IMG/VR virus record: IMGVR_UViG_3300033146_001218
Coordinates: 1-33,083 of that record
DNA length: 33,083 nucleotides
Origin: a virus
Strand: one strand, 5' to 3'
A program made the translations under genes and the position numbers. Below the pieces are notes generated by a model. That model was not told where the DNA came from. It saw only the letters and a program-made list of their open reading frames with translations, and made no database searches. Below, piece by piece: positions 1,162-32,005 of the stretch (position 1 is its first letter; the number at the start of each line of letters is the position of its first letter).

Positions 1162-2028
1162 ATGCATAATGATGAAGATTTTTTTGATATAGATGATGAA
1201 TTTGAATCTTTAAATGATGAAAATGTTGTAGAAAATGTAAATGACGAAAGTGATTTAGATACGGAAGACTTTGATTTTGAAGATGATGAGATTATATCAG
1301 ATGAAGAAATAGATGAAGATGTAAAAACTTCAAAAGAAATAAAAAAAGAGTTTAAAAAAGCAAAAAATGTATCTGATAATTATAAACGAGGTAAAATCGA
1401 AATAAATGATTCTGTTTCTGAGTTAAAAGGTAGTATAGATTCTATGTTAGAAACATTAGATAATCCAAATGATATGTTCATAGAACAAGATTTATTACCA
1501 AGTTTAGAATTAACTGATGTAGAAGTATATGATTATGTACAAGAAATCGAATTAATAAAAATTGATAGTAAAGATACATTAGAATCATTAGCAAACCTAT
1601 ATTTAGATATTGAAAAAATGAAAAATAAAAATATCTATAAGATTATAAAAAATGATGCTGAAGCATTAGCAGATCTTAATTTTTCAATATCGATGGCTAA
1701 AAGAGCATTAATAGGTTGTATGAAACAACTTGATTTAGGTGTAAATGATCCTGATATGTATCAAGCAGTTGCGATGTTTCAGAAAGAAATGAGGGATACT
1801 ATTAAGATGACATATGATATTCAGAAAAAAATGAAAGATTTCTATAAAGAATTAAAAAATGAATTACCAGAGATAAATGGTGGTGAACAAGAGATACAAG
1901 AAGAAGAAACAATCGAAGATGAATATACTATAATTGGTGATCCAAAACTACTTAATAGTGTATTGGAACAATACGAAAAAGATCCATCACTATTAAATAT
2001 TAAAAAAGATGATAAGACTAAAGATTAA
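1162..2028 (+). CDS. Candidate small terminase subunit (T4 gp16-like)
   Basis: This is a 288-residue acidic protein whose first 60 residues are mostly Asp/Glu. The C-terminal half aligns by eye with T4 gp16: a helical stretch near residues 165-195, then N-D-P-D-M-Y-Q-A-V-A-M-F, then a long helix ending K-K-M-K-D-F (T4 has K-D-M-K-D-I), and a tail I-G-D-P-K-L-L-N-S-V-L-E-Q-Y matching T4 M-G-S-P-T-E-L-M-D-E-I. The small terminase would form a ring that recognises concatemeric DNA and regulates the large terminase during packaging. The acidic N-terminal extension is absent from T4 gp16. The gene overlaps the convergent ankyrin gene by 11 bases. A structural or virion protein is the alternative. 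Confidence 0.55.
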   Translation: MHNDEDFFDIDDEFESLNDENVVENVNDESDLDTEDFDFEDDEIISDEEIDEDVKTSKEIKKEFKKAKNVSDNYKRGKIEINDSVSELKGSIDSMLETLDNPNDMFIEQDLLPSLELTDVEVYDYVQEIELIKIDSKDTLESLANLYLDIEKMKNKNIYKIIKNDAEALADLNFSISMAKRALIGCMKQLDLGVNDPDMYQAVAMFQKEMRDTIKMTYDIQKKMKDFYKELKNELPEINGGEQEIQEEETIEDEYTIIGDPKLLNSVLEQYEKDPSLLNIKKDDKTKD

Positions 2029-2518
2029 AATCAGAAATTTTTATTGATTTTTTTAGTAGTTCATATTTTTCTGGATAATTTTCTTTTAACCATTCTTCAC
2101 CATTATATAAATAATATATGAATGTTCTACCATAAGAATCTTGTTTTGTTACATCAGCACCATTATCAATTAATAATCTAATTAATTCATATGTTATACC
2201 TTTTATTGATGCTAAAATTAACGGTGTCATACCAACAGGAGAAATATTTTCAGTTATATATGTTATACTATGAATATTTGTTTCATAGATAGTTTGATTT
2301 ATATTTGCACCACTTTCTAACGCTGTTTTAATATATATGGCATCATAATCTTGAATAATTAAATGATGTAATATAGTTTCGCCATCATATATAAAATCAT
2401 CTATAAATCCAGATGCTTTTTTAATATCATCTATTGTTGCTTCTTTATCTTGAATTTTATAGAATAAATCTTGTAGAAAAATATGGTTATTTTCAAATAA
2501 TTTAAATTTTGTTATCAT
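2018..2518 (-). CDS. Ankyrin-repeat protein with capsid-targeting-like leader
   Basis: This 166-residue protein begins MITKFKLFE, identical in its first nine residues to the ankyrin protein at 12984. Two or three ankyrin-type units follow: G-E-T-I-L-H-H-L-I near residue 46, S-G-A-N-I-N near 70, and G-M-T-P-L-I-L-A-S with L-L-I-D-N-G-A-D near 95-122. The end carries Y-P-E-K-Y and the terminal D-F-N-L shared with paralogues at 14855 and in the interrupted gene at 12984. Ankyrin repeats normally bind other proteins; the target here is unknown. Its ATG overlaps the stop of the DHH phosphoesterase gene (ATGA), so the two are translationally coupled. Confidence 0.75.
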   Translation of the reverse strand: MITKFKLFENNHIFLQDLFYKIQDKEATIDDIKKASGFIDDFIYDGETILHHLIIQDYDAIYIKTALESGANINQTIYETNIHSITYITENISPVGMTPLILASIKGITYELIRLLIDNGADVTKQDSYGRTFIYYLYNGEEWLKENYPEKYELLKKSIKISDFNL

Positions 2519-4359
2519 TTATCATTTTGGATTTTTTGAGCATTCCTTATATCAGATGCTAACATTGTTTTTTTATTTAAATCTTCATCTTTAACTTTTG
2601 ATGGTGTTTTTTCTTCACTTTCATCACCCCAAGGCATTTTAATGTCAGACCATTTTACACCTGATAAATCTTGAATCATTTTATTTTTTATTAAATCCAA
2701 AAACCTCGAATCTGTATATATTTTTGTTGCTCTACCAAAGATATTTGATATTGAACCAATTCCTTTGTGTCCACCGGCAACTGTTGTAACATTTTCAACA
2801 GCATTTATATCTAAACCAAAATGTTCTTCAAAGTTTTTCAATAATACTTCACAATATTTACCAAGATTACCAACAGTTGTGCCGTCTTTCAATTTAGGTA
2901 AATATTCTTTATCATAATTATCTAATTTGTGATATGATGCGACTTGAAAAGTATTACCATATTGTAATAAAATCCAAAATATTGGTTGTTTTGCTCTCAA
3001 TATTAAAGTGCCTTCTGTTCGTTCTGGATCGAATACTAATCTACCATCTACCATTTTTGTAGCATCACCACCTTCAATCATTTCTTGATATAAATCAATA
3101 TAATCAGAAATACCTTCTACTTTTTCTTCTTTTTCATCCTTTTTTATATTTATTGTCGTAATATCAGTATCATATGTAATATCTCCAATAACTTCTACTT
3201 TCTGTCCAATTTTCATTTTCATTATATCATATAATGGACTATCTTTTTCAATTTCATATTGAATTGTTGGAACTAAACCATCTTGTTTACCATATTCTTT
3301 ATCTAATCTTGAAATCGCTTTTTTCATATCTTTTTCCAAGATTGCTCTGGCTCTCAACGCATTAGCCCAAGTACCAGACGGCACAAACATCATATTACCA
3401 ATTATCTGATAACCATCTAATTTAATTCCTTGATTAGTAGCAAATTTTTTATGAAATTCTACTTGTGAGTGAATAGTTTCTTTTGATTTAGGTTCGACTT
3501 TATTCCAACCTTGTTTTGTCATTCCTCTCGTTTTTTCTTGCATTGTATTTAATCGCCATTCAGCATCTTTAAGAAAATCTTTTTGGAATGTTTTTAACAT
3601 TGCTGGATTAGTTAATTTTAAATTTTTAATATATGCTTCTGTATCGTCATCAAAACCTGCGTTTTTCGATGCTTTCTTCAATGTCCACATATTCATATTA
3701 TTGGCAGGATATAATAATCTAAATAATCTATAAATATTATAGATGCTTGGATTTTTATCTGTTGTGTTAGCAACAACTTCAATAAATGTTCTGTGATCTG
3801 AACGTTTTAATAATTGATTGAAAGCTGCCGAAAATTCTAATTTAGATTTGAATTTCTTTGGATCAAAATTCAATAACACTTCTTGATCGATATTATAGTC
3901 ATCATATTTAGCACTATCAATCATATCAATTACATTTTGTATTAATGAATCTATTGGTAAACCTAATTGATCGCAAATTCCTTCATACGCAGATGTTGTT
4001 TCAGTTTTTATCGCACTTTTTTTATAATTATCATCTAATTCTCCTTGGTGATGATCAATGTAAACATCAATACCTTCTGTGTTTTCAGCATAATCTAATG
4101 CTATATTAATATATTTATTATTTAATGTTGTTGTGTTCCAACTTTCTTGATAATTAATTATACCATATCCTTGAATTTTGAAACCTTTATCTTCAAGGTG
4201 ATTTTTCATTAATATTGCTGAATATATACCATCCAAATCATCATGGAAATATATCATCACTTCTTTACCGACTTTACCTTTTTTAATCCAATAATCTTCT
4301 GAATTAGGTATTCTTGGCGCTGATTCATTCAACTTTGTATAATTTGTGAAGTTTTTCAT
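2515..4359 (-). CDS. DHH/DHHA1-family phosphoesterase with capsid-targeting-like leader
   Basis: The 614-residue protein has the DHH superfamily motifs: H-D-D-L-D-G at residues 39-44, an Asp in A-L-D-Y at 89, the signature D-H-H at 102-104, and Asp148. G-G-H-K-G-I-G-S at about 529-536 matches the DHHA1 substrate-binding G-G-G-H-x-x-A-x-G. Relatives (NrnA, GdpP, RecJ) are metal-dependent phosphoesterases that act on short oligonucleotides, cyclic dinucleotides or single-stranded DNA. The segment between the two domains is much longer than in NrnA. The N-terminus MKNFTNYTKLNE resembles the T4 internal-protein leader. It is followed by the ankyrin gene with an ATGA overlap. Packaging into the head, and a role against nucleotide-signalling defence, are inferences. 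Confidence 0.78.
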   Translation of the reverse strand: MKNFTNYTKLNESAPRIPNSEDYWIKKGKVGKEVMIYFHDDLDGIYSAILMKNHLEDKGFKIQGYGIINYQESWNTTTLNNKYINIALDYAENTEGIDVYIDHHQGELDDNYKKSAIKTETTSAYEGICDQLGLPIDSLIQNVIDMIDSAKYDDYNIDQEVLLNFDPKKFKSKLEFSAAFNQLLKRSDHRTFIEVVANTTDKNPSIYNIYRLFRLLYPANNMNMWTLKKASKNAGFDDDTEAYIKNLKLTNPAMLKTFQKDFLKDAEWRLNTMQEKTRGMTKQGWNKVEPKSKETIHSQVEFHKKFATNQGIKLDGYQIIGNMMFVPSGTWANALRARAILEKDMKKAISRLDKEYGKQDGLVPTIQYEIEKDSPLYDIMKMKIGQKVEVIGDITYDTDITTINIKKDEKEEKVEGISDYIDLYQEMIEGGDATKMVDGRLVFDPERTEGTLILRAKQPIFWILLQYGNTFQVASYHKLDNYDKEYLPKLKDGTTVGNLGKYCEVLLKNFEEHFGLDINAVENVTTVAGGHKGIGSISNIFGRATKIYTDSRFLDLIKNKMIQDLSGVKWSDIKMPWGDESEEKTPSKVKDEDLNKKTMLASDIRNAQKIQNDK

Positions 4360-4385
4360 AAATAAAAATTCTTTTTAGTTAGTAT

Positions 4386-4407
4386 TATATATAAAAAAGC
4401 AAATATA
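4386..4407 (-). promoter_or_regulatory. Promoter region of the DHH-ankyrin operon
   Basis: On the minus strand two elements precede the DHH gene. TATATTTG (4400-4407) fits the Bacteroidota -7 box, without a clear TTG upstream. TTTATATATA (4386-4395), 26 bases before the ATG, fits the late-type box found before other structural genes. The operon may be read at more than one stage of infection. Confidence 0.4.
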
Positions 4408-4420
4408 AGAAAAATAAATT

Positions 4421-4455
4421 AAAAAACCACATATTAATCAAAATATGTGGTTTTT
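4421..4455 (-). terminator. Intrinsic terminator
   Basis: A 13-base-pair perfect inverted repeat (4423-4435 with 4442-4454) around CCACATATT has a 6-base loop and is flanked by A and T runs on both sides. It lies 24 bases past the stop of the 4479-4982 gene and ends that minus-strand unit before the DHH promoter. Confidence 0.8.
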
Positions 4456-4478
4456 ATCTCTATTTTCCCGAACAGAGT

Positions 4479-4982
4479 TTATTTTAATAGTTTTTTAATA
4501 TTTTCAACTATTATGTTTTTTATATCATCATTAGGTATATTTTTAATAATTGTGAATGTATCACTACCTTCGATGTTTATGTTTTCAAAAATACTTTCAT
4601 TTAAATTATCTTTATGATATTTTATTAATGTTTCAACAAAAAGATTTAAGTCTATTTTTGTTTCTAAATTATATTTTAATAGCACAATACTATCATTTTG
4701 TTCAGTAATAATAAAATGTAATTTACTTTTACTGATTTTCTTTTGTTCTAATAATTGTATTGTCGAACTTGGTTTGATTGGTCCAATAAATGAAACAACT
4801 TTACCATCAAATATAATTGATTCAGAAATCTCTTTCACCTTTTCTATTTTTTTAGGTTTAGGTGTCTTTTTCAACATTGGTTCTTGAACTTTTGGTTCTT
4901 GAACTTTTGGTGTTTCTTTATCAGGAGTAGATGATTTCATACTCGAATTCTCATTAATATAATCTGTATATTTCTTTAACAT
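4479..4982 (-). CDS. Hypothetical protein with capsid-targeting-like leader
   Basis: The 167-residue protein starts MLKKYTDYINE, close to the T4 internal-protein leader MKTYQEFIAE, with a candidate prohead-protease site after I-N-E. A basic, proline-rich linker follows, with the duplicated unit P-K-V-Q-E and P-K-P-K-K (residues about 25-48). The remaining 115 residues look like a compact alpha/beta domain with no family I recognise. A lysine-rich, DNA-binding linker would suit an internal head protein, but that is an inference. It lies 31 bases after the Q-rich gene and ends at a strong terminator, so the two genes form a small operon. Confidence 0.65.
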   Translation of the reverse strand: MLKKYTDYINENSSMKSSTPDKETPKVQEPKVQEPMLKKTPKPKKIEKVKEISESIIFDGKVVSFIGPIKPSSTIQLLEQKKISKSKLHFIITEQNDSIVLLKYNLETKIDLNLFVETLIKYHKDNLNESIFENINIEGSDTFTIIKNIPNDDIKNIIVENIKKLLK

Positions 4983-5013
4983 AATATAATTTTTTTATAT
5001 GATCTTAATCAAT

Positions 5014-5538
5014 TTAAATTGCTTGTGTTTGACCACCTTGAATTGCTTGTCCTTGAATTTGACCTTGACCTTGACCTTGTCCTTGAATTTGTCCTTGACC
5101 TTGAACTTGTGTTTCTTGACCTTGAACTTGTGTTTCTTGACCTTGAATATCCTGAGCAGTTTCTTGTGCTTGGATGTTCTGTGTATCTTGAACTTGTGCT
5201 TGTGGATCCATTTGTGCTTGTGGTTGAACTTGAACTTGTGGTTGAACTTGTGTAGCCGCAGTACCTAAAACGATAGAAGTTGGAAAGTTTTCGATAGTCA
5301 TAAAAGAATCGGCTAAATATTGCACTAACATCTCAGCTATTTGATCTTTTGAATGTGTATTCAATAAATCTTGTCCTGATTCATCTTTTACTTTTTTCAT
5401 ATATCCTGATACAATAGAACCAGGCACTTTTATTGCGTTTCTTACATCAAAATCACTACCATTTAATATAACTGTTTCATTTAATTTTTTCCCAGTCTTA
5501 ATTGATTTGAAATCATTTAAATTTTTCATGTTTTTCAT
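5014..5538 (-). CDS. Q/G-rich repeat protein with leader-like N-terminus
   Basis: The 174-residue protein starts with two MKN units (MKNMKNLNDF), and its candidate protease site is L-N-E at residues 19-21. Residues 22-90 form an ordinary-looking domain with V-L-N-G-S-D-F-D. The last 80 residues are low complexity, built from Q-V-Q-P-Q, Q-A-Q and Q-G-Q-G units with almost no basic residues. No family is recognised. It is the first gene of a minus-strand unit behind a late-type box at 5560-5569. A scaffold, core or internal head role would fit the leader and context but is not shown. The start at 5538 rather than the ATG three codons later is the better fit to box spacing; both are possible. 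Confidence 0.65.
   Translation of the reverse strand: MKNMKNLNDFKSIKTGKKLNETVILNGSDFDVRNAIKVPGSIVSGYMKKVKDESGQDLLNTHSKDQIAEMLVQYLADSFMTIENFPTSIVLGTAATQVQPQVQVQPQAQMDPQAQVQDTQNIQAQETAQDIQGQETQVQGQETQVQGQGQIQGQGQGQGQIQGQAIQGGQTQAI
5040..5250. repeat. Short tandem repeats inside the Q-rich gene
   Basis: The plus strand is an array of CTTG-centred 6-base and related units. It includes a perfect direct duplication of a 21-base unit at 5097-5117 and 5118-5138. On the minus strand it encodes the Gln/Gly/Val tail. Such arrays expand and contract by slippage, so tail length probably varies between isolates. Confidence 0.8.
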
Positions 5539-5559
5539 AATTATAAATTATTTTTCTTT

Positions 5560-5569
5560 TATATATTAA
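5560..5569 (-). promoter_or_regulatory. Late-promoter-like box
   Basis: The minus strand reads TTAATATATA, with 21 bases between box and ATG of the Q-rich leader gene. This spacing matches the copies before the 10738 gene (22), the lysozyme (21) and the gp26-like gene (20). Confidence 0.5.
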
Positions 5570-5609
5570 TTAATAAAAGTCATTTTTTTTCAAACTATAA
5601 ATCAAAAAT

Positions 5610-5619
5610 TCAATATATA
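5610..5619 (+). promoter_or_regulatory. Late-promoter-like box
   Basis: TCAATATATA differs by one base from the TTAATATATA box and has 21 bases to the ATG at 5641. It lies back to back with the minus-strand box at 5560-5569, making a divergent promoter region. Confidence 0.4.
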
Positions 5620-5640
5620 TACTAAAAATCAAAAAATACA

Positions 5641-5982
5641 ATGAACAAAACTATTATATGGACTGTTGTAATATACTCGCTGATCTTGTTGTTGGTTGGT
5701 TATATTTATTTTAATTCTGATTTAAGTTACAAAAAAGAAATTGAAAAAATTGAAAATGAATACAAAATAAAAAATGATTCATTAGAAAATACTATTAAAA
5801 TTTATGAATTAAAAATAGAAAAATTAGATTCATTAAATAATGACATAACAAATGATATTGATTCTATAAAAAATAAACAAAATGATAATGAAACATACAC
5901 ATATACTCCTTTTCATAGTCTTTCTCCTGATTCAGTTGCAAACATATTCGCAAGATACGACATCAGTAAAAGATACGAATAG
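5641..5982 (+). CDS. Membrane-anchored coiled-coil protein, candidate inner-membrane spanin
   Basis: The 113-residue protein has one N-terminal hydrophobic segment (residues about 5-25, T-I-I-W-T-V-V-I-Y-S-L-I-L-L-L-V-G-Y-I) and then a charged helical region rich in Lys, Glu and Ile/Leu heptads (30-85) that should form a coiled coil. This is the architecture of an Rz-type inner-membrane spanin, which links inner and outer membranes in the last step of lysis. The next gene starts inside its 3' end in another frame, as in many Rz/Rz1 pairs. There is no sequence-level match to a known Rz that I can claim. A plain membrane-anchored phage protein is the alternative. Confidence 0.55.
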   Translation: MNKTIIWTVVIYSLILLLVGYIYFNSDLSYKKEIEKIENEYKIKNDSLENTIKIYELKIEKLDSLNNDITNDIDSIKNKQNDNETYTYTPFHSLSPDSVANIFARYDISKRYE

Positions 5983-11155: not shown

Positions 11156-11524
11156 TTTAGTGTTTTTTATATATTTATAATTGATTGATTATTAGATACT
11201 TAGATATTTATAATATATTGATTATCAGTTACTTATATAATGGCAAAAAACGAGATTTTAAAACAAATATATAAGATTGTTGTATAAAAAACAGATTGAA
11301 AAAAGTGAAATAATAAAATTTATTTATTATGAAAATCACAACTTTTATTTGATTTTTACTATAACTTTTAAAGCAATTGAAATGGTTAGTTTTCCAGAAA
11401 AAAACATTGTGAAGAATTTAAGGCAATTAAAGAAATGTAAGGCAATTTAATGTAAAAAAGCAATTTAATGAAATTTTAATTTATCCTTTTAATTAACTTC
11501 ATATAAAAAATACTTATATGAAAT
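11156..11524. other. Long leader region upstream of gp32
   Basis: This 369-base stretch has no convincing gene. It holds a 15-codon ORF at 11240 (MAKNEILKQIYKIVV) and, overlapping it in another frame, about 60 open codons without an ATG near the beginning, ending at about 11451. These may be remnants of a lost gene. The downstream half carries GCAATT repeats, described separately. No late-type box or exact host-type promoter is evident here. Confidence 0.5.
11370..11470 (+). repeat. GCAATT repeats in the gp32 leader
   Basis: Four copies of [AG]GCAATT followed by A, T or G start near 11372, 11422, 11441 and 11459. The last three are spaced 18-19 bases apart and two are preceded by TAA. They end about 55 bases before the gp32 ATG. 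T4 gp32 represses its own translation by binding A/T-rich repeats in the mRNA leader, so these could be an autoregulatory operator. That is inferred from position only. Confidence 0.45.
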
Positions 11525-12499
11525 ATGAGTGAAAACATAGCAGACGACTTCTTATTCGGTGGAATGGGAGCAGACGATCAAACATTGTCAGTGTTTGACA
11601 AAAAAGCAACACAACAAGACGGAATCTACCGTCCAACACTAAAAGATGCAAAAGACAAAAAAACAGGTTATCGAGCAACTTTAAGATTCTTACCAAACTT
11701 ATTAGAAAGTGGAAAAATTGGACCAAGTGCCATAGAAAAACATGTACATTATGTGGATATGAAAAATGAGCCAGGTATCGCAGGTTATTATGACTGTAAT
11801 AAAAACCACGAATCAGATTGTCCTTTATGTACTGAATTTTGGAAACTTAAAAATTCTAAAAATGCAGCAGATAACGCAAAAGCAGAGATGTTATCAAGAA
11901 CAACAAAATATTATTCTTATGTATTAGTTGTTGAAGATGAGCAACATCCAGATTTAGTTGGAAAAATCTTAGTATATCCTTATGGTTTTACTATCAAAGA
12001 AAAAATTAATTCTGAACGTCAAGGCGAAGTTTCAGGTGTTCCAACAAATATTTTTGACTTAGCAAAAGGAAAAGATTTTAGATTAATTATTAAAGAAAAA
12101 GGTGGTTTTCAAAACTATGAAGCATCTCAATTCTTAGATGTTAGTCCAATTAAAATTTGGAATGAGAAAAACGAGAAATTTATGGTAGCACCATTAACAA
12201 AATCAGGAGCAATTGGTGCCGAAGGTGATGACAAAAAAACAGCAACTATACATTCAAAAATTAAAGATATGCTATTATCTAAAACTGTTAATTTAACTGA
12301 CCATGAAGCAATTAAGTGGGACGAGCAGACAAAAGGTAAAGTTGATACCATCTTAGCAGTATTAAGTGGTAATGTAGATTACAAAGCAAATCAACAAGCA
12401 AAAAATACTTCAACTGATGCGACAACATCAACATCAACTGAAGATTTTGATACAGAACCAACAGAAGCAGATGATTTCTTTGACCTTGAAGATGAATAG
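11525..12499 (+). CDS. 32: Single-stranded DNA-binding protein, T4 gp32-like
   Basis: The 324-residue protein aligns along its core with T4 gp32. T-L-R-F-L-P at 52-57 matches V-I-R-F-L-P. The zinc ribbon has C91, C99, C102 and a His at 73 or 75 (T4 H64, C77, C87, C90). Y-Y-S-Y-V-L-V-V-E-D matches Y-W-A-N-I-L-V-V-K-D, and G-G-F-Q-N-Y-E-A-S-Q-F-L matches S-G-F-S-N-Y-D-E-S-K-F-L. The tail is Thr/Ser-rich, then acidic (A-D-D-F-F-D-L-E-D-E), like the gp32 A domain that binds other replication proteins. It coats single-stranded DNA in replication, recombination and repair. A terminator follows directly. Confidence 0.93.
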   Translation: MSENIADDFLFGGMGADDQTLSVFDKKATQQDGIYRPTLKDAKDKKTGYRATLRFLPNLLESGKIGPSAIEKHVHYVDMKNEPGIAGYYDCNKNHESDCPLCTEFWKLKNSKNAADNAKAEMLSRTTKYYSYVLVVEDEQHPDLVGKILVYPYGFTIKEKINSERQGEVSGVPTNIFDLAKGKDFRLIIKEKGGFQNYEASQFLDVSPIKIWNEKNEKFMVAPLTKSGAIGAEGDDKKTATIHSKIKDMLLSKTVNLTDHEAIKWDEQTKGKVDTILAVLSGNVDYKANQQAKNTSTDATTSTSTEDFDTEPTEADDFFDLEDE

Positions 12500-12579: not shown

Positions 12580-12987
12580 ATGAAATATTTAAGATTGTTT
12601 GAAGAATATGATTACACTAATATGATACCTGGAAATATTTATAAAATGGTAGACATAGATAATCCATTGATATGTTTTATTGGAGATAATTCGATGAATA
12701 ACAATATTGGTGCTTATGGTGTTATAATTGTTGATATGGTAAATAATAATTATACTATATTAGATTGGGAAAAGAATAGAAAATTATATTCTACTAATAT
12801 GACATTGAAAGATTTAATTATTGAAGATAAAATAGATATGGTAAAAATAGAAAATGATTTTCATTATGCTATAAATTATGCCGAAAATGAAAACTTTGGT
12901 AATATCGTCAAAAATTTTCATAAATATTATATTGAAAATGATAAAGATATACAACGAAAAACAAAAACTAATGAATTTAATTTATGA
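12580..12987 (+). CDS. Hypothetical protein with leader-like N-terminus and EFNL C-terminus
   Basis: The 135-residue protein starts MKYLRLFE, with L-F-E as candidate prohead-protease site, and ends T-N-E-F-N-L. The body appears to be a small beta-rich domain (G-N-I-Y-K-M-V and I-G-A-Y-G-V-I-I-V strands), then a helix. I recognise no family. It is the first gene of a tightly packed plus-strand unit (12580-15538, probably running into the GH16 gene). Its stop overlaps the next start (ATGA). Start choice rests on the shared leader pattern and the promoter box just upstream. Confidence 0.65.
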   Translation: MKYLRLFEEYDYTNMIPGNIYKMVDIDNPLICFIGDNSMNNNIGAYGVIIVDMVNNNYTILDWEKNRKLYSTNMTLKDLIIEDKIDMVKIENDFHYAINYAENENFGNIVKNFHKYYIENDKDIQRKTKTNEFNL

Positions 12988-14156
12988 TTACTAAATTTAA
13001 ATTATTTGAAAAGTCATCACTAACACCATTAGGTGTTCCGGAAGAAGTAATGAAAGAAATACAGATTAATTTTGAGATTGATTCAAATGCAAGATGGTCA
13101 AAAATGAAATTAAAAAAAGATGTATTATATGAATTAAAAAAAGATGAAAGACAATTTTTTATACAATTAGATAAAAAAGGTAATATTTTCATCTTTATAA
13201 ACGATTATCAAAATTATACTAAACAATATTTTAAATTAGAAACTGATGGTTGGGGTAGTTTTAGAATAGATGATAGAGAAGCAATCACATATAATCAATT
13301 AAGATATTCAGTTAATATTAATGATGATATTTATATGTTACAAAGTTCTGATTTTAAAACTAAACCAAAGAAAGAAAGACGACTTAAAGCACAAATAGAA
13401 GAATTAGAAAAAAGCACATCCGAGTTTAAAATTTATATAATGGATAATTTTAATAAAATTATACGTAGTATGTATGGTGCTAAATATAAAAAAGTAATGA
13501 ATAAAATATCTGAAAATCTTTCTAAAATATCTGGTAATTCAACACCTGATGACATATTAAAATTTATTGAAAATAATAAAAAATTAGCACAAAAAGCCAA
13601 AGAATATGAAAATGCAAAGGAAGAAAAAGATTTGAAACGAATTAAAGAATTAGAAACACAGTATAATTCTCTAACCATTTTTGATGAAAAATTATTAGAA
13701 TTTGAAGATCATTATTCAAATGAATTTAGTTATTATATTAATATTGAAAATCTTATTAATGATTTTGGTAGAATGTATATTGAAACAGCATTTATGTATT
13801 ATCTATATACCAATAGATTCAGAGAATTACAAATAAGAGAAAGTGTGAATATTAGTGAAAATGATATAAATAGTATGATATATTATGCTCAAAAAGGATA
13901 TATTGATATGATTAAAAAATCATTAGAAAAAGGAGTTGATATTAATGATTATGGTAGTATTGAATTAACAGCATTATTAATGGCTTGTAGAGAAGATCAT
14001 TATGAAACTGTTGAATTTTTAATTAAAAATGGTGCTGATGTAAATTATCAATCAAAAACATCAAAAACAACAGCATTAATGATTTCTGCAATAAATAATA
14101 CAGAAGAAGATGATATTGAATATTTAATATTATTGACTGATAATGGTGCTGATTAG
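12984..14156 (+). CDS. Ankyrin-repeat protein with leader-like N-terminus, cut short by an in-frame TAG
   Basis: Residues 1-9, MITKFKLFE, equal those of the ankyrin protein at 2018-2518. Residues 10-110 form a globular region, about 115-285 are helical and charged, and ankyrin units begin near residue 295 (G-V-D-I-N-D-Y-G; T-A-L-L-M-A-C; L-I-K-N-G-A-D-V-N; T-A-L-M-I-S-A; L-T-D-N-G-A-D). The frame stops at TAG codon 391, yet the following 48 codons stay in frame and encode the expected ankyrin end. In the paralogue at 14855 the matching position is Trp (A-D-W-N, TGG), so one G-to-A change explains the stop. The product may be truncated, or full length if suppressed. Confidence 0.7.
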   Translation: MITKFKLFEKSSLTPLGVPEEVMKEIQINFEIDSNARWSKMKLKKDVLYELKKDERQFFIQLDKKGNIFIFINDYQNYTKQYFKLETDGWGSFRIDDREAITYNQLRYSVNINDDIYMLQSSDFKTKPKKERRLKAQIEELEKSTSEFKIYIMDNFNKIIRSMYGAKYKKVMNKISENLSKISGNSTPDDILKFIENNKKLAQKAKEYENAKEEKDLKRIKELETQYNSLTIFDEKLLEFEDHYSNEFSYYINIENLINDFGRMYIETAFMYYLYTNRFRELQIRESVNISENDINSMIYYAQKGYIDMIKKSLEKGVDINDYGSIELTALLMACREDHYETVEFLIKNGADVNYQSKTSKTTALMISAINNTEEDDIEYLILLTDNGAD

Positions 14157-14303
14157 AATAAAAAAAATTCAGATGGTAGATCATTTTTAGAAATATTACA
14201 AAATAAACAAGCAGATTATTTATACAATAAAATAATTGAAATATATCCAGATAAATATAAACAATATAAAATGAATAAAAAATCAACAGATTTCAATCTA
14301 TGA
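14157..14303 (+). pseudogene. In-frame 3' remainder of the interrupted ankyrin gene
   Basis: After the TAG the same frame continues N-K-K-N-S-D-G-R-S-F-L-E-I-L, then I-Y-P-D-K-Y and the terminal S-T-D-F-N-L, ending TGA. It matches the ends of the paralogues at 2018 (Y-P-E-K-Y ... D-F-N-L) and 14855 (Y-P-E-K-Y ... D-F-N-L). There is no start codon near its beginning. Its final bases overlap the start of the next gene (ATGA), the same coupling seen for intact neighbours. Confidence 0.7.
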
Positions 14304-14854
14304 AACATTTAAAAACTATTAATGAATATAATACTGAAAATGATGATCATAAAGTAGATCAGAGAGTTAATATAAACAATGATAAAAAATTTGGTGAAGA
14401 AACACCAGTAATATTACCTACGGATTATTACCTTACACCAGATGAAGATGGTGAGATAGATGATGAAGATTATTATACTACTTCAGCAGGTAGAGATGGT
14501 TTATATCATGGTGTAGAACCAGGACATAATAAAGGAACAAAAGCAAGAAAAACAGCAGTTTATAAAATGTCCGCTGAAAGCATTAACAACAATCTTAGTG
14601 ACGATAAATTATTAGAAAAATATAATAAATCGATAAGTAGAATAGAAAAAAATATTAGTAAAAATACTGAAAGATTAATTTATAATATAGATGAACTATT
14701 TCTTAATTCATATGAAGATGAATTAAGATATTATAAGAGTAAAATATATGAAATATCTTCAAATAGAGATTTATATGAAAAACTAGAAAACATATTGGAA
14801 AAGAAATTGGTAGTATTAAAAAAACTATATAAAATAAATGATTTTAACTTATAA
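14300..14854 (+). CDS. Hypothetical protein with leader-like N-terminus and DFNL C-terminus
   Basis: The 184-residue protein begins MKHLKTINE, with I-N-E as possible prohead-protease site. An acidic stretch with P-D-E-D-G-E-I-D-D-E-D-Y-Y follows at about 50-65, then a Gly-rich basic segment (G-H-N-K-G-T-K-A-R-K-T-A), and a long Lys/Glu/Leu helix likely to form a coiled coil (105-178). It ends K-I-N-D-F-N-L. It has no ankyrin repeats and no family I recognise, so the shared ends are not explained by simple paralogy. It sits between two ankyrin genes, with ATGA overlap upstream and direct abutment downstream. Confidence 0.65.
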   Translation: MKHLKTINEYNTENDDHKVDQRVNINNDKKFGEETPVILPTDYYLTPDEDGEIDDEDYYTTSAGRDGLYHGVEPGHNKGTKARKTAVYKMSAESINNNLSDDKLLEKYNKSISRIEKNISKNTERLIYNIDELFLNSYEDELRYYKSKIYEISSNRDLYEKLENILEKKLVVLKKLYKINDFNL

Positions 14855-15538
14855 ATGAAAAAATTGAAAACATATAAACAATTATTTGAAAATACATATA
14901 ATTTTGAATTTTTTATCGCTATTGAAAATCGTGATTTAGATAGAATCAAAGAAATAGTTGAAAAAAAAGATTTTGATATAAATATACAAAACATGTATGA
15001 AAACAATGGTCTATTGTGTTTAATTGGATTGAAAAATGATAAAGATATTGATTATGATATAGCAAAATATTTAATAAATAATGGTATAGATATTAATTTA
15101 GAAAGTAAGACATCACACGAGAATTTGTTGATGACTGCAATATCAAAAAGGAAAAATAAAATAGTAGAATTATTATTAGAAGAAGATGATATTAATGTTG
15201 ATAATTTTGGTATATATAATGCGATTTATTATGCTTCTTGGTTTAATTTAGATATAAAACTCGCTGAAAAAATAATCAAAAAAGGTTGTGATATTAATAT
15301 TAGCTCATATCATGATATAACACCATTGATGAAAGCATCATTAAATGAAGATATGGATATGATAAAAATGTTAATTGATTATGATGCTGATTGGAATTTG
15401 GTAGATAATGAAGGTGATACGTTTTTAGATATTTTACACCTTATGAGTAATGATAAGTATAAAAAAATAAAATCATTATATCCAGAAAAATATAAAGAAT
15501 ATGTAAAAAATAAAAAAGTTGGAGATTTCAACTTATAA
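14855..15538 (+). CDS. Ankyrin-repeat protein with leader-like N-terminus and DFNL C-terminus
   Basis: The 227-residue protein begins MKKLKTYKQLFE, with L-F-E as possible cleavage site. About five ankyrin-type units follow: A-I-E-N-R-D-L-D-R-I; Y-L-I-N-N-G-I-D-I-N; L-L-M-T-A-I-S-K-R-K; K-G-C-D-I-N-I-S; T-P-L-M-K-A-S-L-N-E-D; and I-D-Y-D-A-D-W-N. The end has Y-P-E-K-Y-K-E-Y and V-G-D-F-N-L. Ankyrin arrays bind proteins, and a delivered host-binding factor would be in keeping with the leader. The ATG directly follows the TAA of the preceding gene, and the GH16 gene starts 14 bases after the stop. Confidence 0.78.
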   Translation: MKKLKTYKQLFENTYNFEFFIAIENRDLDRIKEIVEKKDFDINIQNMYENNGLLCLIGLKNDKDIDYDIAKYLINNGIDINLESKTSHENLLMTAISKRKNKIVELLLEEDDINVDNFGIYNAIYYASWFNLDIKLAEKIIKKGCDINISSYHDITPLMKASLNEDMDMIKMLIDYDADWNLVDNEGDTFLDILHLMSNDKYKKIKSLYPEKYKEYVKNKKVGDFNL

Positions 15539-18502: not shown

Positions 18503-20273
18503 AATCCCAAAAATCATCATATTCGATTTCACCATTATCTGATTTTTCTTCAGTATCAATATCCGAAAAATCATCTTCAATATTACTTTCTATAACTTTT
18601 TTCTCAATTGATACAGATGGCTCTTCTATTTTAATTTCTTCTTTTTCAATATAATCACCATTTTCAGTATAATCTAAATCATCAGATGATATAATTTCGA
18701 TATTATCATCTTCCATATCATAATCATCTTTAACAATCTTTTTCTTTTTCTTTTTCTTATTAGTAGAAAATAAAGAATTTAAAACAGATAATCTTTTATT
18801 TATCTCAGGTAAACCAATAGGTTCGATAAATCTATTCGCAATTGACAAAAATGTTTTTTCAAATTGCATATCATAATCAACTTCAATTCCTTCTTCTGTT
18901 GTTACTTCTGTCGGATGAAAACTTCGTAGATAAGCAAATCTATCAGCACTAGTATATTTATCTTCTTGTTGTATCTTTAAATCATTTTTTGTAAAGTACC
19001 ATTTAATTCTACCACCATTTAAGAGGTTATATCGTGTCTTATATGATGTGTGTTCGTTCAATAGATAGTTATGTAACACAGCCGCTTTAACAGAGAAATG
19101 AGCACCTTTTAATGTTTCCATTCGACCTTGATCTTCAACCATTTTTATTTCATAATTATTTAAAGATGTAGTCATTGAAATATCTTCAACATCAGCCAAC
19201 TTAAATTCTTTTTTAAGATTTTTCATTATTTTCAAAATCTCTTTAATAGATACATTACCTGGGTTTTTGAACAAATATTTAATAAAATCCCAAATATTTT
19301 CTCTTACAAATGTTGGTGTCGAACTTTTAACAATTTCAACACCTTTTGGATAAAAATGTGATAAATCTTCAAAGAATACTCCATCTTCCCAAACAACATT
19401 ATTAATATAATGTTTTTTCTGAATATGTAAAGCAGATTTATTGATAGTTTCTAATTCAAAATCATGTATAGAATCAACACCATATTTATCAGCATATTCT
19501 TTTAAATATTTATTAAACATCGGTTGTGTAAAAACAGCATTCATGTGTAGTATAAATTTTAACTCATCTCCCTTAAAGTCAATACTTTCCATTATTGGGG
19601 TATATGAAATATATAATGAATCTGTATCACCATATATCACTAATGGAACTGTTCTAATACCTCTATATAAGTGAACAGATGAATCATTTGTCAAATCTGG
19701 TCTTGGTTCAATATCAAATTCATTAGGTATTGGTTTAATATTTGATAAATCAGCAATAAATACTTTCTCAATTATTTGATATTCATCACCATCTATGTTT
19801 ATAATATCTTTATCTGATTCAACAAAATCATTTTGATTAAGATAATATGCTTCTAATATTTTATCAAAACCTGTTGTCTTTTCATCATCTTCTCTACCCC
19901 AAGCATCAATCAATACTTCATCTTTTCGATGTATGTAATATTTTTTATCAAATTTAGAAATATACATAACACCAATATTATCAATATTCTCTATCTCATT
20001 TCTACCCCAATTATCATAAAAATATTCTTCAATGTGATCTAACATCCAGTTAATTACTTCTCTCGAACTGGCTGTAATCGCATTGGCTATATCTGCATTT
20101 GATACTGTAAATGCTGGGTGACAAAATGCTCCATATGTACCATTTAATACTAATTTTAATGCTAATTGCATCGCCTTAGCATAATCTCTTTCAGATTGTG
20201 TTTGTAAGAGTTTTTCTTTCAACTCTTTAATTTTTTCACGTTTTTGTGTCTCTGTCATATCTTTTATTTCCAT
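18501..20273 (-). CDS. 43: DNA polymerase family B, C-terminal fragment (T4 gp43-like, split)
   Basis: The 590-residue protein starts just before polymerase motif B, with K40 and N-G-T-Y-G at 44-48. It continues with motif C, Y-G-D-T-D-S at 214-219, whose two Asp bind catalytic metals, and the Q-K-K-H-Y segment that corresponds to the thumb-side K-K-x-Y. The exonuclease domain and motif A (D-x-x-S-L-Y-P) are missing and must be encoded elsewhere; the two pieces would assemble into the replicative enzyme. Motifs B and C are about 170 residues apart against roughly 55 in T4, so there is an insertion at about 90-205. The acidic tail ends D-D-F-W-D, possibly a sliding-clamp contact. No stop-free extension lies upstream. 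Confidence 0.88.
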   Translation of the reverse strand: MEIKDMTETQKREKIKELKEKLLQTQSERDYAKAMQLALKLVLNGTYGAFCHPAFTVSNADIANAITASSREVINWMLDHIEEYFYDNWGRNEIENIDNIGVMYISKFDKKYYIHRKDEVLIDAWGREDDEKTTGFDKILEAYYLNQNDFVESDKDIINIDGDEYQIIEKVFIADLSNIKPIPNEFDIEPRPDLTNDSSVHLYRGIRTVPLVIYGDTDSLYISYTPIMESIDFKGDELKFILHMNAVFTQPMFNKYLKEYADKYGVDSIHDFELETINKSALHIQKKHYINNVVWEDGVFFEDLSHFYPKGVEIVKSSTPTFVRENIWDFIKYLFKNPGNVSIKEILKIMKNLKKEFKLADVEDISMTTSLNNYEIKMVEDQGRMETLKGAHFSVKAAVLHNYLLNEHTSYKTRYNLLNGGRIKWYFTKNDLKIQQEDKYTSADRFAYLRSFHPTEVTTEEGIEVDYDMQFEKTFLSIANRFIEPIGLPEINKRLSVLNSLFSTNKKKKKKKIVKDDYDMEDDNIEIISSDDLDYTENGDYIEKEEIKIEEPSVSIEKKVIESNIEDDFSDIDTEEKSDNGEIEYDDFWD

Positions 20274-21465: not shown

Positions 21466-22272
21466 TTAACTAATAAACTTTTTATATTCTCTCAATCTTC
21501 GTATTCTAAGACCAGGAAATTTCTTATCATTTATCCTAAATGTCTTTATTAATTCAGCAGTTTTCTGATAATTTCCTTTTTTTAATTCTTGAATGAAATC
21601 AGATTTCAACATACCAGAAACACCGGAATTATATGTTATTGATACCAAAGCATCATATTGATTTTGTGTTAATTTAATATCAATACCTTTATTCTTCCAT
21701 CGTTTCCATAATCTTCTCATACCAGCAACTTTTTCATTTACATCTTTATGAAATATTCTTGTTGCTTCATTTTCCGTTATAGTATCACCAATATGATATT
21801 TAGAATTTTCAATTCTTTCAGCATGACCATAACCAATAGTTATCATACCATCACCTATTTTATAGGCTGTTAAACTCAGTTTCTCTTCATCACGAATCAT
21901 ATTCCAACCTGCTTGACTAAGATGTAATTCAGAAATATCTTTATATGCTGAATTTTTTAAAGTATCTTCAAAATTCGTTTCTAAATTATTTATTTGAGAA
22001 TCAATATCTGGTGATATTTCTTTTAATGGATTTACTTTTTGTTTTTCTAATTCGTCTAAAATTTCTTTCATGTTTTCATCTTCAATCTCATCTTTGATTT
22101 TTGGACTAGCAATTAGTTCTTGAATTTCAGACACAGAATATATAGCCAATAAACTAACCAATACTAATTTGATAGTTTTCTTAGATACTTTTTCTTTTAA
22201 TTTATTAAAAATATTTTTAACATTCATAAAATTTTCATTTATTTCACTATTAAAGTTATTATAATTTTTCAA
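21466..22272 (-). CDS. GH24 lysozyme with leader-like N-terminus and membrane helix
   Basis: The 268-residue protein ends in a T4-lysozyme-type domain (about 115-268). E130 lies seven residues before Y137, as T4 E11 before Y18, and T145 in I-T-I-G-Y-G-H matches T4 T26. The T4 D20 position is Ile139, with Asp141 two residues on. N-A-L-V-S-I-T-Y-N-S-G-type sequence (here D-A-L-V-S-I-T-Y-N-S-G) and R-L-R-E-Y-K-K-F are also family features. It cuts the peptidoglycan glycan chain. Residues 1-13, MKNYNNFNSEINE, look like a capsid-targeting leader. A membrane helix (about 33-48) and an acidic linker follow. It may be a signal-arrest endolysin or a head-packaged lysozyme. Confidence 0.85.
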   Translation of the reverse strand: MKNYNNFNSEINENFMNVKNIFNKLKEKVSKKTIKLVLVSLLAIYSVSEIQELIASPKIKDEIEDENMKEILDELEKQKVNPLKEISPDIDSQINNLETNFEDTLKNSAYKDISELHLSQAGWNMIRDEEKLSLTAYKIGDGMITIGYGHAERIENSKYHIGDTITENEATRIFHKDVNEKVAGMRRLWKRWKNKGIDIKLTQNQYDALVSITYNSGVSGMLKSDFIQELKKGNYQKTAELIKTFRINDKKFPGLRIRRLREYKKFIS

Positions 22273-23672: not shown

Positions 23673-23694
23673 GATAAAATGAAATAATATTTTA

Positions 23695-30500: not shown

Positions 30501-31226
30501 TCTAATGACATCAATAAATTAAATATCCAAAAAAATGAATTGAAAGATAAAGCAAGTTTAGGAGATTTATGTTCTTGGACTGAAAATGTTGATGTATTAA
30601 TATTAAAAGTATTGAAAGATTTTGTTATGGAGATGAGAAATAAACCTAATCCATATGATGAAAGATTACAGAAAAATCAACAATCTATTGATAATATTAA
30701 TAAAGCATTAACCATCGCTCAAACGAAAAAAGATTCGTTAGAAAAATATATTAATGGTAATTCATTATCAAATCAACAAGTCAAAAATAATAAAGCAATT
30801 GTTGTCTTAAATGCTAAGATAGATAGCATAGATAAATATGCTTGTTCTAATGAATTGAGTGATAGTGAATTAGATAAATTAAGTACAATAAAAAATGATT
30901 TATTAAGAGAACGTAATGAATTAATAGACACTGATATTGATCCGAATGTTATTGGTGAGTTAAATACATTAATTAATAATCTGAAAGAAAAATTGAGAAA
31001 ATTAAAAATTGAGAAAAAAGAATTAGAAAACAAATCAAAAAAGAAACAAGATGAAATAAACGCATCAATTGAACAATTAGATGATATTGCTAAATGGTTT
31101 GTTGTAATACTGAATATTATTTGTTGTACACCAAAATTAGTTGTAAATATTATCATAGTAATATTAAATGCTGTCGGTTATATGAAAAACTTACCTACGT
31201 TATGGGAGTTTCCATATATCAATTAA
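24558..31226 (+). CDS. Giant coiled-coil protein (2222 aa), candidate tail tape measure
   Basis: Residues 1-180 are coiled coil. About 255-370 is a hydrophobic segment with G-G-L-A-G-I-L-D-M-F. A second coiled coil lies near 410-560. Helical solenoid-like units of about 20-24 residues carrying L-G-[FLI]-[ND]-[FL]-x-x-P recur at about 570-750, 1195-1235, 1310-1560 and 1690-1730. Two similar beta-domains with H-G-A-E-I start near 855 and 983. More coiled coil follows at 1565-1690 and 1850-2180. A long hydrophobic stretch (about 1735-1845) and a hydrophobic end complete it. Length, helices, membrane-like segments and the neighbouring gp26-like gene suggest a tape measure. The beta-domains are unusual for that role, so another large virion protein is possible. 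Confidence 0.5.
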   Translation: MPDATDNKETLLEGLSFSTLEATKKTKKRLEKERKSYQQQIEYYTNILNDDILPDLKNSILKLEQKISAKNIEISELQQSILYNSSDYSNVELILKKEELSKLCDELLSLETELKKEQENYNYQKQKLSELSFDEIKDKINSLNEKLNKNTEQLTFIRNKMRLLQLDEPEEVKQNKIQLSEIDLEKVNLDNFDLNSILPESDLEFLNKTWYEEWDNKIYIDENLGIYILYDKPGVIGTTMKCFFGAGDIPTQTIESMSNPALGGLAGILDMFIETLIKAIGQFAKQFFFFKNTIDLLAGLELGELLGNAIPGIVKVLQELKLMLTDTPKWMLKTLLGPLFDTNVPIPKFCINIGDFIPFLPFNLCIPEIDPFGYFSKNTALNLNADPRDVPITWLADIQTEVLEMKKEEKVSALENRIKKLKILNDKIKELENRINRINIYDKQVTICLNKLKQLELKEKSCHDTGCTQEIIDLTCSEIDKQKKCLNDLLGKQKVEQHIIDIMHCDIQSKDSFVMIPIFCQSLIDAKKELEILKKDKEILNKNEIKSKFDYKKRSIIVAMNENIENDGLADKLEELYDLGVNVYDNTNLELLQKIGHDFTSDDYLKKLIDLRSEKISLSNNKQLRFLYDLGFSFNDPNHISKIHQLSKYISLDSTQLILLVDMGLNLQNENVFDVLKELKSLNIKLTKTILVRLETIGFNFNNPHSIENLKILGDYIDLGDVKAYETAIQRNISLNNPYFKDILIKTHKIGLRWGGSDSNGYFNVEDEIISDTSIPTNVDYIIKILDYFKMSDNNYIAQKYYRDIYSEAKVKNELSIYDDITYIETLNYTTQYSDGETEINRIDAIYTLHTSGDYHGAEIEIYIDNVLTDTITSSSSIITDYSYTIPYNKEFKLIWHSGSDDTESELNVNVNKNGNNITIYDFSTFGIPNDNDDFLIDQQTITEVLYENEWYDTNNDLHEDGRVYTSFYAEIPASYKMELTGNFHGAEINVYIDDILQGSYTNSTTNTSVIEFDVPYGLTLKLTYSNAVSQTLSEASYNLLYKDNIIDTYNSFLGTNLLTTDTRNEKKLTLNYAIKSLNLSHFYDKINQYSKYDIILNIPKLNDIKPYEEPYNIKTPNKLLFIDNINGFIEKLLLLKEFHEYKGWKIGDTGEISNEQLGGNYIDNDWNNINDDFDILTQGSGLNATKEINTTEHQISFDVLRGVYNELEKLGLNIKDPNFKTNFDYFFNNLGISMDESVLLDTTRVVTLTYTDIKRWEWNDLVPYHPVVTIDLSTNKVDPDVYSNARYNATISVTEVKKENVSKQPMKSVVQFNVLQKLGFNFKQPNALTFLNKLVGLNLDLKKHETKLTIDALISIGWHLTNDTNYNKLQYLIDNGLNFKILEEPDTIVTTPVSQMYSKLEHLSLFGFNFQKNNYQEVFSILNSLNIKLKNTNFEAVIENLIGFGINLNDDDWYSKLNILINEKFDFTPGDDINIIDDWRLRLDNLSLMGIDFNGYDWYANYQKMKSFKQFGLNYTDITLRKKITILTNLGLDFSKPEDEWKQKVESLIKLKLIKIPSNIISNKKDYLSKLREDKLTINKELIKYQRLNNDPTYIIDDEISKIKIKIKHLDSQINIEENYKKRDKLCVLFDNDKRVLTELLLKKESIIKLQPNYDKEIENLTTQKENLINQVYKLNEKIIFESLDKFKGFETSGLNFYDKNYQKNIDNVIDSGFNFGLVDWEDKLKLITKLFPVNPILEWIKSLVEMIKTIIMMPVQMLMGIIKMLIDLIKQVIGIPLNPVKIPDWSKGILDKFKALIDLIMSLTTIEGIMDILFMSPDGLKLIDVFIPGFASFMSMLMKKVTSWKDDYKDSIKALSDKKSQLKNLKIDKNILNNKLSLFIDQLNNSSTSTDNVEKNIELQKKILLENNETLKKLLDSDVSISKQTLLNIQKELEKNCDSIDEVDNMLNEANNLSTQQLNNNITNLDKNKDNLEIQIKKLSNDINKLNIQKNELKDKASLGDLCSWTENVDVLILKVLKDFVMEMRNKPNPYDERLQKNQQSIDNINKALTIAQTKKDSLEKYINGNSLSNQQVKNNKAIVVLNAKIDSIDKYACSNELSDSELDKLSTIKNDLLRERNELIDTDIDPNVIGELNTLINNLKEKLRKLKIEKKELENKSKKKQDEINASIEQLDDIAKWFVVILNIICCTPKLVVNIIIVILNAVGYMKNLPTLWEFPYIN

Positions 31227-31231
31227 TAATA

Positions 31232-31241
31232 TTAATATATA
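31232..31241 (+). promoter_or_regulatory. Late-promoter-like box five bases from the start codon
   Basis: Exact TTAATATATA with five bases to the ATG at 31247, as at 12565-12574. The transcript would be leaderless if initiation follows T4 late promoter spacing. Confidence 0.45.
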
Positions 31242-31246
31242 GTTAT

Positions 31247-32005
31247 ATGAAAAATTATGATAGTTTTATTAATGAAAATCTACTTAAAGATTTTCTAAAA
31301 AAAGCATTTGCACAATCATTGACTTTCTTATCAAAAGATAGACAAGAGATTATGATTAAATTAATTGATTCAATCAATAATAAAAAATCATTTATTGATG
31401 GTATAAATAGTGTCAAAAATGTTTTCAAAAATATAGAACAAACAAAAATAGACAATATCAATAGTTTAAAAACATCTATCAATGATGATCTTATTTCAAT
31501 AGATATGTCATTAAAAACATTAAGTAAAAAATTCGGTACTGATGAATTATTACCAAAAAATTTCTATAATGAATCTAATAATAAAATATTAAAAACAGCA
31601 TTAATATATGATAATGAAAAAGATTTTTTGAAAAATCTACCATTCAATTCAAACCAATTATTATTCCAAATATTAAAAACTGCAGGTTTAGATGATCAAC
31701 AAATAAAATCTTTATTGAAAACAGAACAAAAAAATGAAAGTATGATATTTGAATTACAAGATGTTCAACATCTTCAAAATACTGATAAATTAGACGATAC
31801 TATCAATGATGAAGAACAAGAACTATCTGATGAAGAAAATGATGAAACAAAAGAAAACGACAAATCAGATAATATAGATTTCACAAAAATACAAAAAGCA
31901 TATACAGACTTTCAACAAAATGCGATATTTATACCACTAATAAAAGAATTAGATAAATTCAATAATGAACGTGAAATAGAATTAAAAAATCCAAAAAATT
32001 TCTAA
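31247..32005 (+). CDS. Hypothetical protein with capsid-targeting-like leader (252 aa)
   Basis: The frame is open from within the giant gene, but the start at 31247 is chosen because it follows the promoter-like box and gives MKNYDSFINE, the closest match in this window to the T4 leader MKTYQEFIAE. The body is helical, with L-L-K-D-F-L-K-K-A-F-A-Q-S at once after the leader and a coiled-coil region at about 40-95. A strongly acidic stretch follows at about 185-215, then a last helix. No family is recognised. An acidic, helical, proteolytically matured protein would suit a prohead core component. Confidence 0.68.
   Translation: MKNYDSFINENLLKDFLKKAFAQSLTFLSKDRQEIMIKLIDSINNKKSFIDGINSVKNVFKNIEQTKIDNINSLKTSINDDLISIDMSLKTLSKKFGTDELLPKNFYNESNNKILKTALIYDNEKDFLKNLPFNSNQLLFQILKTAGLDDQQIKSLLKTEQKNESMIFELQDVQHLQNTDKLDDTINDEEQELSDEENDETKENDKSDNIDFTKIQKAYTDFQQNAIFIPLIKELDKFNNEREIELKNPKNF

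Follow-up and report, generated by a model that had tools for sequence, protein, structure and literature searches.

Why should ten open reading frames (ORFs) in a 33-kb phage fragment start with a short peptide that ends in [LI]-[NF]-E? A known precedent is the leader MKTYQEFIAE of phage T4, in which residues 4 and 7 target the protein and residues 8 and 10 are required for processing (PMC9026906). T4 has three internal proteins, and its T-even relatives have at least ten in all, with nothing in common but the leader; Ip1-3 block type IV restriction enzymes (PMC12373910), and the T4 internal proteins are basic (PMC9026906). An initial sequence-only reading of the locus proposed that the phage uses a leader of this type to mark a varied cargo for packaging and injection.

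Our answer is that this reading is likely to be correct, with a probability that we put at about 0.8. The leader would be a T4-type capsid-targeting propeptide that has undergone great expansion in this lineage of huge phages of Bacteroidetes; scaffold binding, cleavage, packaging and injection are all inferred. A leader-type peptide is found on dozens of unrelated proteins, both in this phage and in its 462-735 kb relatives, and that these proteins are packaged and cleaved is predicted in the absence of virion data.

The window and its relatives

The window (the whole stretch of DNA analyzed here, 33,083 bases, which is the entire IMG/VR record) is a fragment of a huge phage. Its DNA polymerase is closest to those of uncultured phage genomes of 735, 636, 635 and 642 kb, with 44% identity to that of LR756501. 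Those genomes are the largest 'Mahaphage' genomes, and their predicted hosts are Bacteroidetes (PMC7162821). The core genes of the window have their best matches in genomes of 634-735 kb, as expected of a Mahaphage-related member of the T4 superfamily. Besides a gp32-like SSB, a tail-tube-like protein and a GH24 lysozyme, the window encodes other T4-superfamily genes. We found no tRNAs and no Rfam matches in the window.

The kinship of this fragment with the Mahaphages of 634-735 kb made it possible to test the leader idea on whole genomes. We analyzed three whole relatives, LR756501, LR745206 and LR756504 (the order of all triplets of numbers below), with ORFs called mechanically, so that start sites are uncertain. 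LR756500 and the Lak-A1 megaphage were covered only to 400 kb; for Lak-A1, coding coverage goes from 65% to 92% when TAG is read as glutamine. Another 80 IMG/VR loci were selected around head genes, and part of their ancestry is common with LR745206. The window itself has no protease or capsid genes, and the evidence on the machinery comes from relatives only.

Ten leaders in the window

All ten leaders are in real ORFs and end in [LI]-[NF]-E, as had been claimed (a slash marks the proposed cut). On the minus strand, the ankyrin ORF 2018-2518 starts with MITKFKLFE/N (2492..2518), supported by the ORF, the domain and a match to the leader profile introduced below. The DHH-phosphoesterase-like ORF 2515-4359 starts with MKNFTNYTKLNE/SAPR (4324..4359), and its orthologues (L235-L239 and LR756501) retain the motif despite varying letters and length. 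Two more minus-strand leaders are profile matches: MLKKYTDYINE/N (4950..4982) of ORF 4479-4982, for which the relative L236 has MGLKKYSEYISE/N, and MKNMKNLNDFKSIKTGKKLNE/T (5476..5538) of the Q-rich ORF 5014-5538, for which L235 and L236 have MKNMKNLKEFKTTNKSGERINE/D. This Q-rich ORF is the first of a run of leader genes, and the stretch upstream of it (5539..5628, minus strand) carries the late-type box AATATATAA. On the plus strand, the profile matches are MKYLRLFE/E (12580..12603) of ORF 12580-12987, MITKFKLFE/K (12984..13010) of ORF 12984-14156, MKHLKTINE/Y (14300..14326) of ORF 14300-14854, and MKKLKTYKQLFE/N (14855..14890) of ORF 14855-15538; the second and the fourth are also supported by their ankyrin domains.

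Two starts had to be corrected. The GH24 lysozyme ORF 21466-22272 (minus strand) uses a TTG start, which gives the leader MKNYNNFNSEINE/N (22234..22272), then a hydrophobic segment, then the lysozyme domain; both the TTG and the leader are conserved in three relatives (L450-L452). The leader MKNYDSFINE/N (31247..31276, plus strand) of ORF 31247-32005 starts at the internal ATG 31247 and not at the longest-ORF start 31094, and it has the spacing of T4 MKTYQEFIAE at residues 1, 2, 4, 7, 8 and 10. IMG/VR relatives were found neither for this ORF nor for ORF 14300-14854.

Two of these genes have features of separate interest. Just past the cleavage motif of the lysozyme there is an in-frame ATG, conserved in the window and in L450-L452, and the gene could conceivably give two products, one with the leader and one without. 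In the ankyrin ORF 12984-14156, the frame is interrupted by a stop at 14154 and is then open up to a DFNL (14154-14303). A pseudogene, read-through or a sequence error are all possible, and the sequence cannot distinguish between them.

The claim that the ten proteins are unrelated held only in part: three of the ORFs (2018-2518, 12984-14156 and 14855-15538) all have ankyrin repeats, and therefore there are about eight distinct bodies. Late-type boxes had also been claimed ahead of most leader genes. Five called leader genes of the window have an intergenic gap of their own, and the claim holds for 4 of them; the other leader genes are within operons. The reading would have been in trouble if the pattern were equally common on non-virion genes. 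The non-leader genes of the window, which include a gp32-like SSB, a DNA polymerase, a tail tube-like protein, a GH16 protein and an AAA kinase, argue against such an even spread.

Leaders in excess of chance

The simplest rival explanation is chance acting on low-complexity, AT-rich N-termini full of K, F, L and N. In its favor, the letters of the leader are common in AT-rich genomes, and S-PM2 and T4 give a few matches without any genome-wide excess (KVP40 has a slight excess only).

In the window, 9 of the 33 called genes have [LI][NF]E in their first 21 residues, versus 1 and 0 in control stretches. The same motif is found in the first 21 residues of 101, 74 and 61 genes of the three whole genomes, compared to about 25-33 in equal internal stretches. 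A leader profile built leaving one genome out, with a threshold of 8 bits, matches 105/972, 104/909 and 55/892 proteins, while the internal controls give 15/831, 10/800 and 10/769 (p=6e-16, 1e-19 and 2e-7). When the profile is trained only on other genomes, the window has 9/33 matches versus 1/32 in the control (Fisher p=0.013). The excess amounts to about 87, 93 and 43 genes per genome, a scale well beyond what the sequence-only reading had seen. It persists in the three whole genomes with reversed as well as internal controls, and it is repeated in the 80 further IMG/VR loci (111/931 vs. 40/858). The median length of the leader is 11 residues up to the E, in agreement with the short propeptides of T4 (10-19 residues, PMC9026906).

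The chance explanation is all but excluded. It is refuted by the controls (internal, reversed and other-stretch), which come from these same AT-rich genomes, and by Lak-A1, whose GC content is 26% and where leaders are not in excess over the 400 kb covered. Moreover, the late box and the residue following the cut (P1′), both presented below, are independent of the letters that define the leader. Still, chance is expected to account for some 10-20% of the profile matches in the three whole genomes, and some of the matches to conserved enzymes (gp41-like, gp32-like, AdoMet decarboxylase) are probably spurious.

A pattern derived from T4

The pattern [FY]xx[FLMYW][LI]xE was fixed beforehand from T4 residues 4, 7, 8 and 10, and it was not tuned on the huge-phage genomes. 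It occurs within residues 1-20 of 49, 23 and 24 genes, whereas any other stretch of 20 residues has it in at most 7, 8 and 6 genes (range 0-8 over the three genomes); the enrichment is solely in residues 1-20. For the genomes covered to 400 kb, the corresponding counts are 17 vs. 3 in LR756500, and 2 vs. 3 in Lak-A1.

Leaders come in two classes, an NE class and a short FE class, [FY]K[LI]FE, which agrees with T4 at residues 8 and 10 but not at residues 4 and 7. In the opposite direction, when the huge-phage profile with a neutral P2 position is applied to the T4 proteins, IPIII (identity from the T4 annotation), ORF 65416-65718 and gp24 rank near the top. The ORF 65416-65718 begins with MKTYQEFIAE, and we take it to be, presumably, IPII. 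As a separate observation on T4, the hypothetical protein gp61.1 (gene 61.1, 18966-19130) has a capsid-targeting-like N-terminus, MKTFKEFIKE/D.

Signs of a cleavage site

In the FE class, the residue directly after the E is A or S in 31/83 leaders (37%), compared to 27/239 (11%) of the internal copies of the same tripeptides (p=6e-7). For the NE class the numbers are 48/166 (29%) versus 62/608 (10%), with p=1e-8.

Orthologous genes are also informative. The sites of the DHH orthologues read KLNE/SAPR, KLNE/SAPR, KLFE/SAPR and ALNE/EAS, in leaders of otherwise varying letters and lengths. KLNE/S and KLFE/S interchange within this one orthologue group, and such tolerance at P2 is what a gp21-type [LI]-x-E site predicts. 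Another case is an ORF that adjoins the capsid gene (LR745206 202508-202897, with orthologues in the 80 IMG/VR loci), which has a leader in all close orthologues. We take it to be NFACT-R-like, judging by eye from the sequence and without a domain scan. Its close orthologues have FNSFNE/S, YLKYFE/S, KSFLYE/G and SFRLYE/S; an aromatic residue and E/[SG] are kept in every one of them, and the letters vary.

For a cut behind the E inside the prohead the support is only indirect, namely the A/S enrichment at P1′ and the capsid-protein site described next. There is no cleavage assay, and cleavage is an inference from sequence alone.

Protease, scaffold and capsid protein

A gp21-like prohead protease is absent from the window, which is a fragment, and it was found in the relatives LR756501, LR745206, LR756504 and LR756500. 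In all three whole relatives an S77-protease-like ORF is directly upstream of the gp23-like capsid gene, and a putative portal ORF is close to them. The S77 Pfam score is below the curated cut-off in these three genomes, and above it in LR756500 and Lak-A1; the LR756501 protease matches the PHROG 'head maturation protease' at 5e-27. Protease and scaffold are one polypeptide, with 10-13 tandem repeats of 14 residues and a consensus near YSEYIAENLDKNIA. We observe 10-13 scaffold repeats in 72 of 72 relatives. The core of the repeat, YSEYIAE, is identical to T4 YQEFIAE at 5 of 7 positions, with a conservative Y/F at a sixth.

Does the scaffold resemble the leader by a measure that has not seen the scaffold? 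We trained the NE-class profile with the protease excluded, and ranked proteins by their number of internal matches. The protease-scaffold ranks 1st of 972 proteins in LR756501, 1st of 909 in LR745206, 2nd of 892 in LR756504, and 1st of 515 in LR756500. The FE-class profile does not single out the protease-scaffold. The P2 residue is Ala in the scaffold units, and mostly Asn, Phe or Lys in the leaders.

The major capsid protein has INE/N at the expected cleavage position in 42 of 42 IMG/VR relatives; among the whole relatives the site reads MNE/N in LR756501 and IHE/N in LR756504. T4 gp23 is likewise trimmed near its N-terminus, as we propose for this site. Repeats and leaders also go together: LR756500 has both a leader excess and degenerate scaffold repeats, while Lak-A1, in the 400 kb tested, has an S77 protease and neither YxEYIAE repeats nor a leader excess. 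This is a small comparison, which fits a mutual dependence of the two.

A second rival explanation is that the leader sorts proteins to some other compartment or complex (a replication site, the membrane, a host structure), and that the likeness to T4 is convergent. Direct virion data are absent, and the C-terminal tags discussed below show that terminal peptides serve more than one purpose. We regard this rival as very unlikely. Evidence for the head comes from the cleavage-type P3, P1 and P1′ residues, from the matching sites of the capsid protein and the protease, and from the scaffold repeat and late promoter.

Two loci of LR756501 deserve mention on their own. One (11314-11850) is a second, short S77-protease-like ORF with a C-terminal DPYGEENW tag. 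The other (61904-66169) has four tandem, similar-looking ORFs of about 350 aa in the head cluster, at least three of them with leader-like N-termini (FVNE/A, YVYE/S, FLFE/A); these might be abundant internal head proteins.

The late box and the nature of the cargo

The late box of the lineage is AATATATA[AGC] or TTATATATA[AGC], and it is present ahead of most of the portal, protease and capsid genes checked. Among genes with an upstream gap of their own, it precedes 73/109 leader genes versus 259/1,023 other genes (odds ratio 6, p=1e-17). The T4 late promoter TATAAATA was rejected as the leader-gene box, as it shows no enrichment ahead of leader genes.

Could the leader genes be just one expanded family that has a common start by descent? 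A few tandem paralogues, such as those of LR756501 at 474-476 kb, would be in favor. Against it, the bodies behind the leaders fall in 97 clusters for 105 proteins in LR756501, 102 for 104 in LR745206, and 51 for 55 in LR756504, that is, they are non-homologous as in T4. Furthermore, RNA ligase 1 has the leader as an extra N-terminus in LR745206, and its orthologues in the other two genomes do not have it. The one-family explanation is thus very improbable. RNA ligase 1 is the clearest case of an existing protein gaining a leader, and it is the only direct demonstration, in outline, of the earlier claim that the leader is swapped onto different effectors.

Most leader bodies are without a known domain. 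The exceptions include RNA ligase 1, a tRNA nucleotidyltransferase, a 2H-phosphoesterase fused to an RNase T exonuclease, DHH, HD and NUDIX proteins, a nucleotide cyclase domain, methyltransferases, peptidoglycan enzymes and ankyrins. An Acb1 label for LR745206 448257-449573 is weak (below the Pfam cut-off); 2H phosphoesterase plus RNase T exonuclease describes it better. Leader genes are clustered along the genome. Membrane proteins are rare among leader proteins (3/108, 3/124 and 0/63 vs. about 10%). The cargo is acidic, with a net charge per residue of -0.03 to -0.06, more so than the other proteins of the three genomes; it does not consist of small basic mature proteins like the internal proteins of T4.

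A third rival accepts scaffold binding and cleavage of the leader, and proposes that the proteins act within the prohead, in assembly or in the core, without delivery to the host. In support, there are leader genes in the head cluster (for instance the related ORFs of about 350 aa at 62965, 64060 and 65144 of LR756501), as well as the leader ORF adjoining the capsid gene. On the other hand, most leader proteins are confined to a single genome out of the three (89/108, 110/124 and 54/63), and the recognizable cargo (RNA ligase 1, 2H-phosphoesterase with exonuclease, tRNA nucleotidyltransferase, NUDIX, cyclase) suits host takeover or counter-defence. We consider this rival unlikely.

C-terminal tags

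In the window, [DE]FNL forms the C-terminus of four leader proteins and the frame end of a fifth. DFNL ends ORF 2018-2518 (2018..2032, minus strand) and, on the plus strand, ORFs 14300-14854 (14840..14854) and 14855-15538 (15524..15538); EFNL ends ORF 12580-12987 (12973..12987, plus strand). The fifth is the DFNL at the frame end of ORF 12984-14156 (14289..14303, plus strand), past the in-frame stop. An artefact of translation coupling is unlikely for DFNL, because ORF 2018-2518 ends against a convergent gene. As such, [DE]FNL was not seen in LR756501 or LR756504, and it was seen once in LR745206, on a non-leader ORF.

Other lineages have other C-terminal tags, and [DE]FNL may be a tag of the same sort. 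In LR756501, a DPYGEENW-like peptide (DPYGE[ED]xW) is found in 84-89 proteins, exactly C-terminal in 37 of them, and sometimes directly behind the N-terminal leader. It is also present in dozens of IMG/VR stretches, and many contigs have several copies. We rejected DPYGEE as an interspersed DNA repeat, since its codons vary and nearly all six-frame matches are in called genes. A C-terminal R...[IL]..[LI]L or LGI tag is found on 84 proteins of LR745206 and 54 of LR756504, mostly small. Only 1 and 0 of these, respectively, have a leader, and 0/28 of the tagged genes with an upstream gap have the late box. Because synonymous codons vary, the C-terminal tags act at the level of the peptide. These patterns were spotted by inspection and counted afterwards, so exact numbers are optimistic. 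The tags are lineage specific, and we propose no mechanism for them.

A bolder reading, which we offer only as a possibility, is that, in the largest phages, a large part of the accessory proteome is sorted by terminal address peptides. The N-terminal scaffold-mimic leader would send proteins to the head for injection, and the C-terminal tags (DPYGEENW; R...I..LL/LGI; DFNL), which partly exclude the leader, would mark other sets for a second fate.

Discussion

The T4-type capsid-targeting reading is supported by the spacing derived from T4, the P1′ residues, the protease and capsid-protein sites of the relatives, the late box, the unrelated bodies, and the leaders conserved in orthologues. The claim that a varied cargo is marked for packaging and injection is consistent with the tests run, where virion presence, cleavage and injection are inferred only. 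The motif and its excess, the late box, the protease, the scaffold repeats, the capsid-protein site and the unrelated bodies are directly observed. Against the reading stand the lack of virion proteomics and of cleavage assays for these phages, and a protease and scaffold that come from relatives and not from the window. The P2 difference between scaffold units and leaders, the FE-class profile that misses the scaffold, and the acidic cargo also count against it.

We propose that late proteins, whose genes share their promoter box with the head genes, have an N-terminal peptide, some 11 residues long, that resembles one scaffold repeat, a copy in kind, by which the protein would be recruited to the core of the prohead. 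The scaffold-fused S77 protease would then cut after [LIF]-x-E, freeing the mature cargo and destroying the scaffold, and it would also mature the capsid protein at its own INE/N site. The cargo would remain in the head with the DNA and enter the next host as a preloaded kit of host-control or counter-defence proteins.

As in T4, with its capsid-targeting sequence, IPI-III and gp21, there is an N-terminal propeptide of about 10 residues of the form aromatic-x-x-aromatic-[LI]-x-E with A/S after the proposed cut, non-homologous bodies and, in the relatives, an S77 protease and an inferred matching cleavage of the capsid protein (PMC9026906, PMC12373910). Unlike T4, the huge phages have about 43-93 excess genes per genome instead of 3, protease and repeat scaffold fused together, an acidic cargo, a P2 that is mostly N, F or K, and a second, short [FY]K[LI]FE leader class. 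In phage P1, an N-terminal stretch of DarB similarly packages a reporter (30 residues are enough, 9 are not), and the cargo is antirestriction (PMC9024508), but the Dar proteins have no common consensus, whereas the huge phages have one consensus across dozens of proteins. Heads of the SPN3US/phiKZ type also have many ejected proteins, some cleaved by the prohead protease gp245 (PMC7411985, PMC10052503). Lak-A1 has a similar S77 protease fused to a long acidic C-terminal region, with an N-terminal LTLNE/A-like site; it differs in the absence of YxEYIAE repeats and leader excess noted above. The literature that we searched (open-licence papers only) has no earlier report of the huge-phage leader system.

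If this reading is true, the virions of the largest phages carry a ready-made kit of varied host-control proteins, chosen by a single peptide of 11 residues that is recognizable in the sequence, and the injected proteome of uncultured huge phages would become predictable. The T4 capsid-targeting peptide would have a mechanistic explanation as a copy of a scaffold repeat. The leader would provide a ready signal to load proteins into very large capsids. And, with most of the cargo having no known domain, it would locate new counter-defence proteins.
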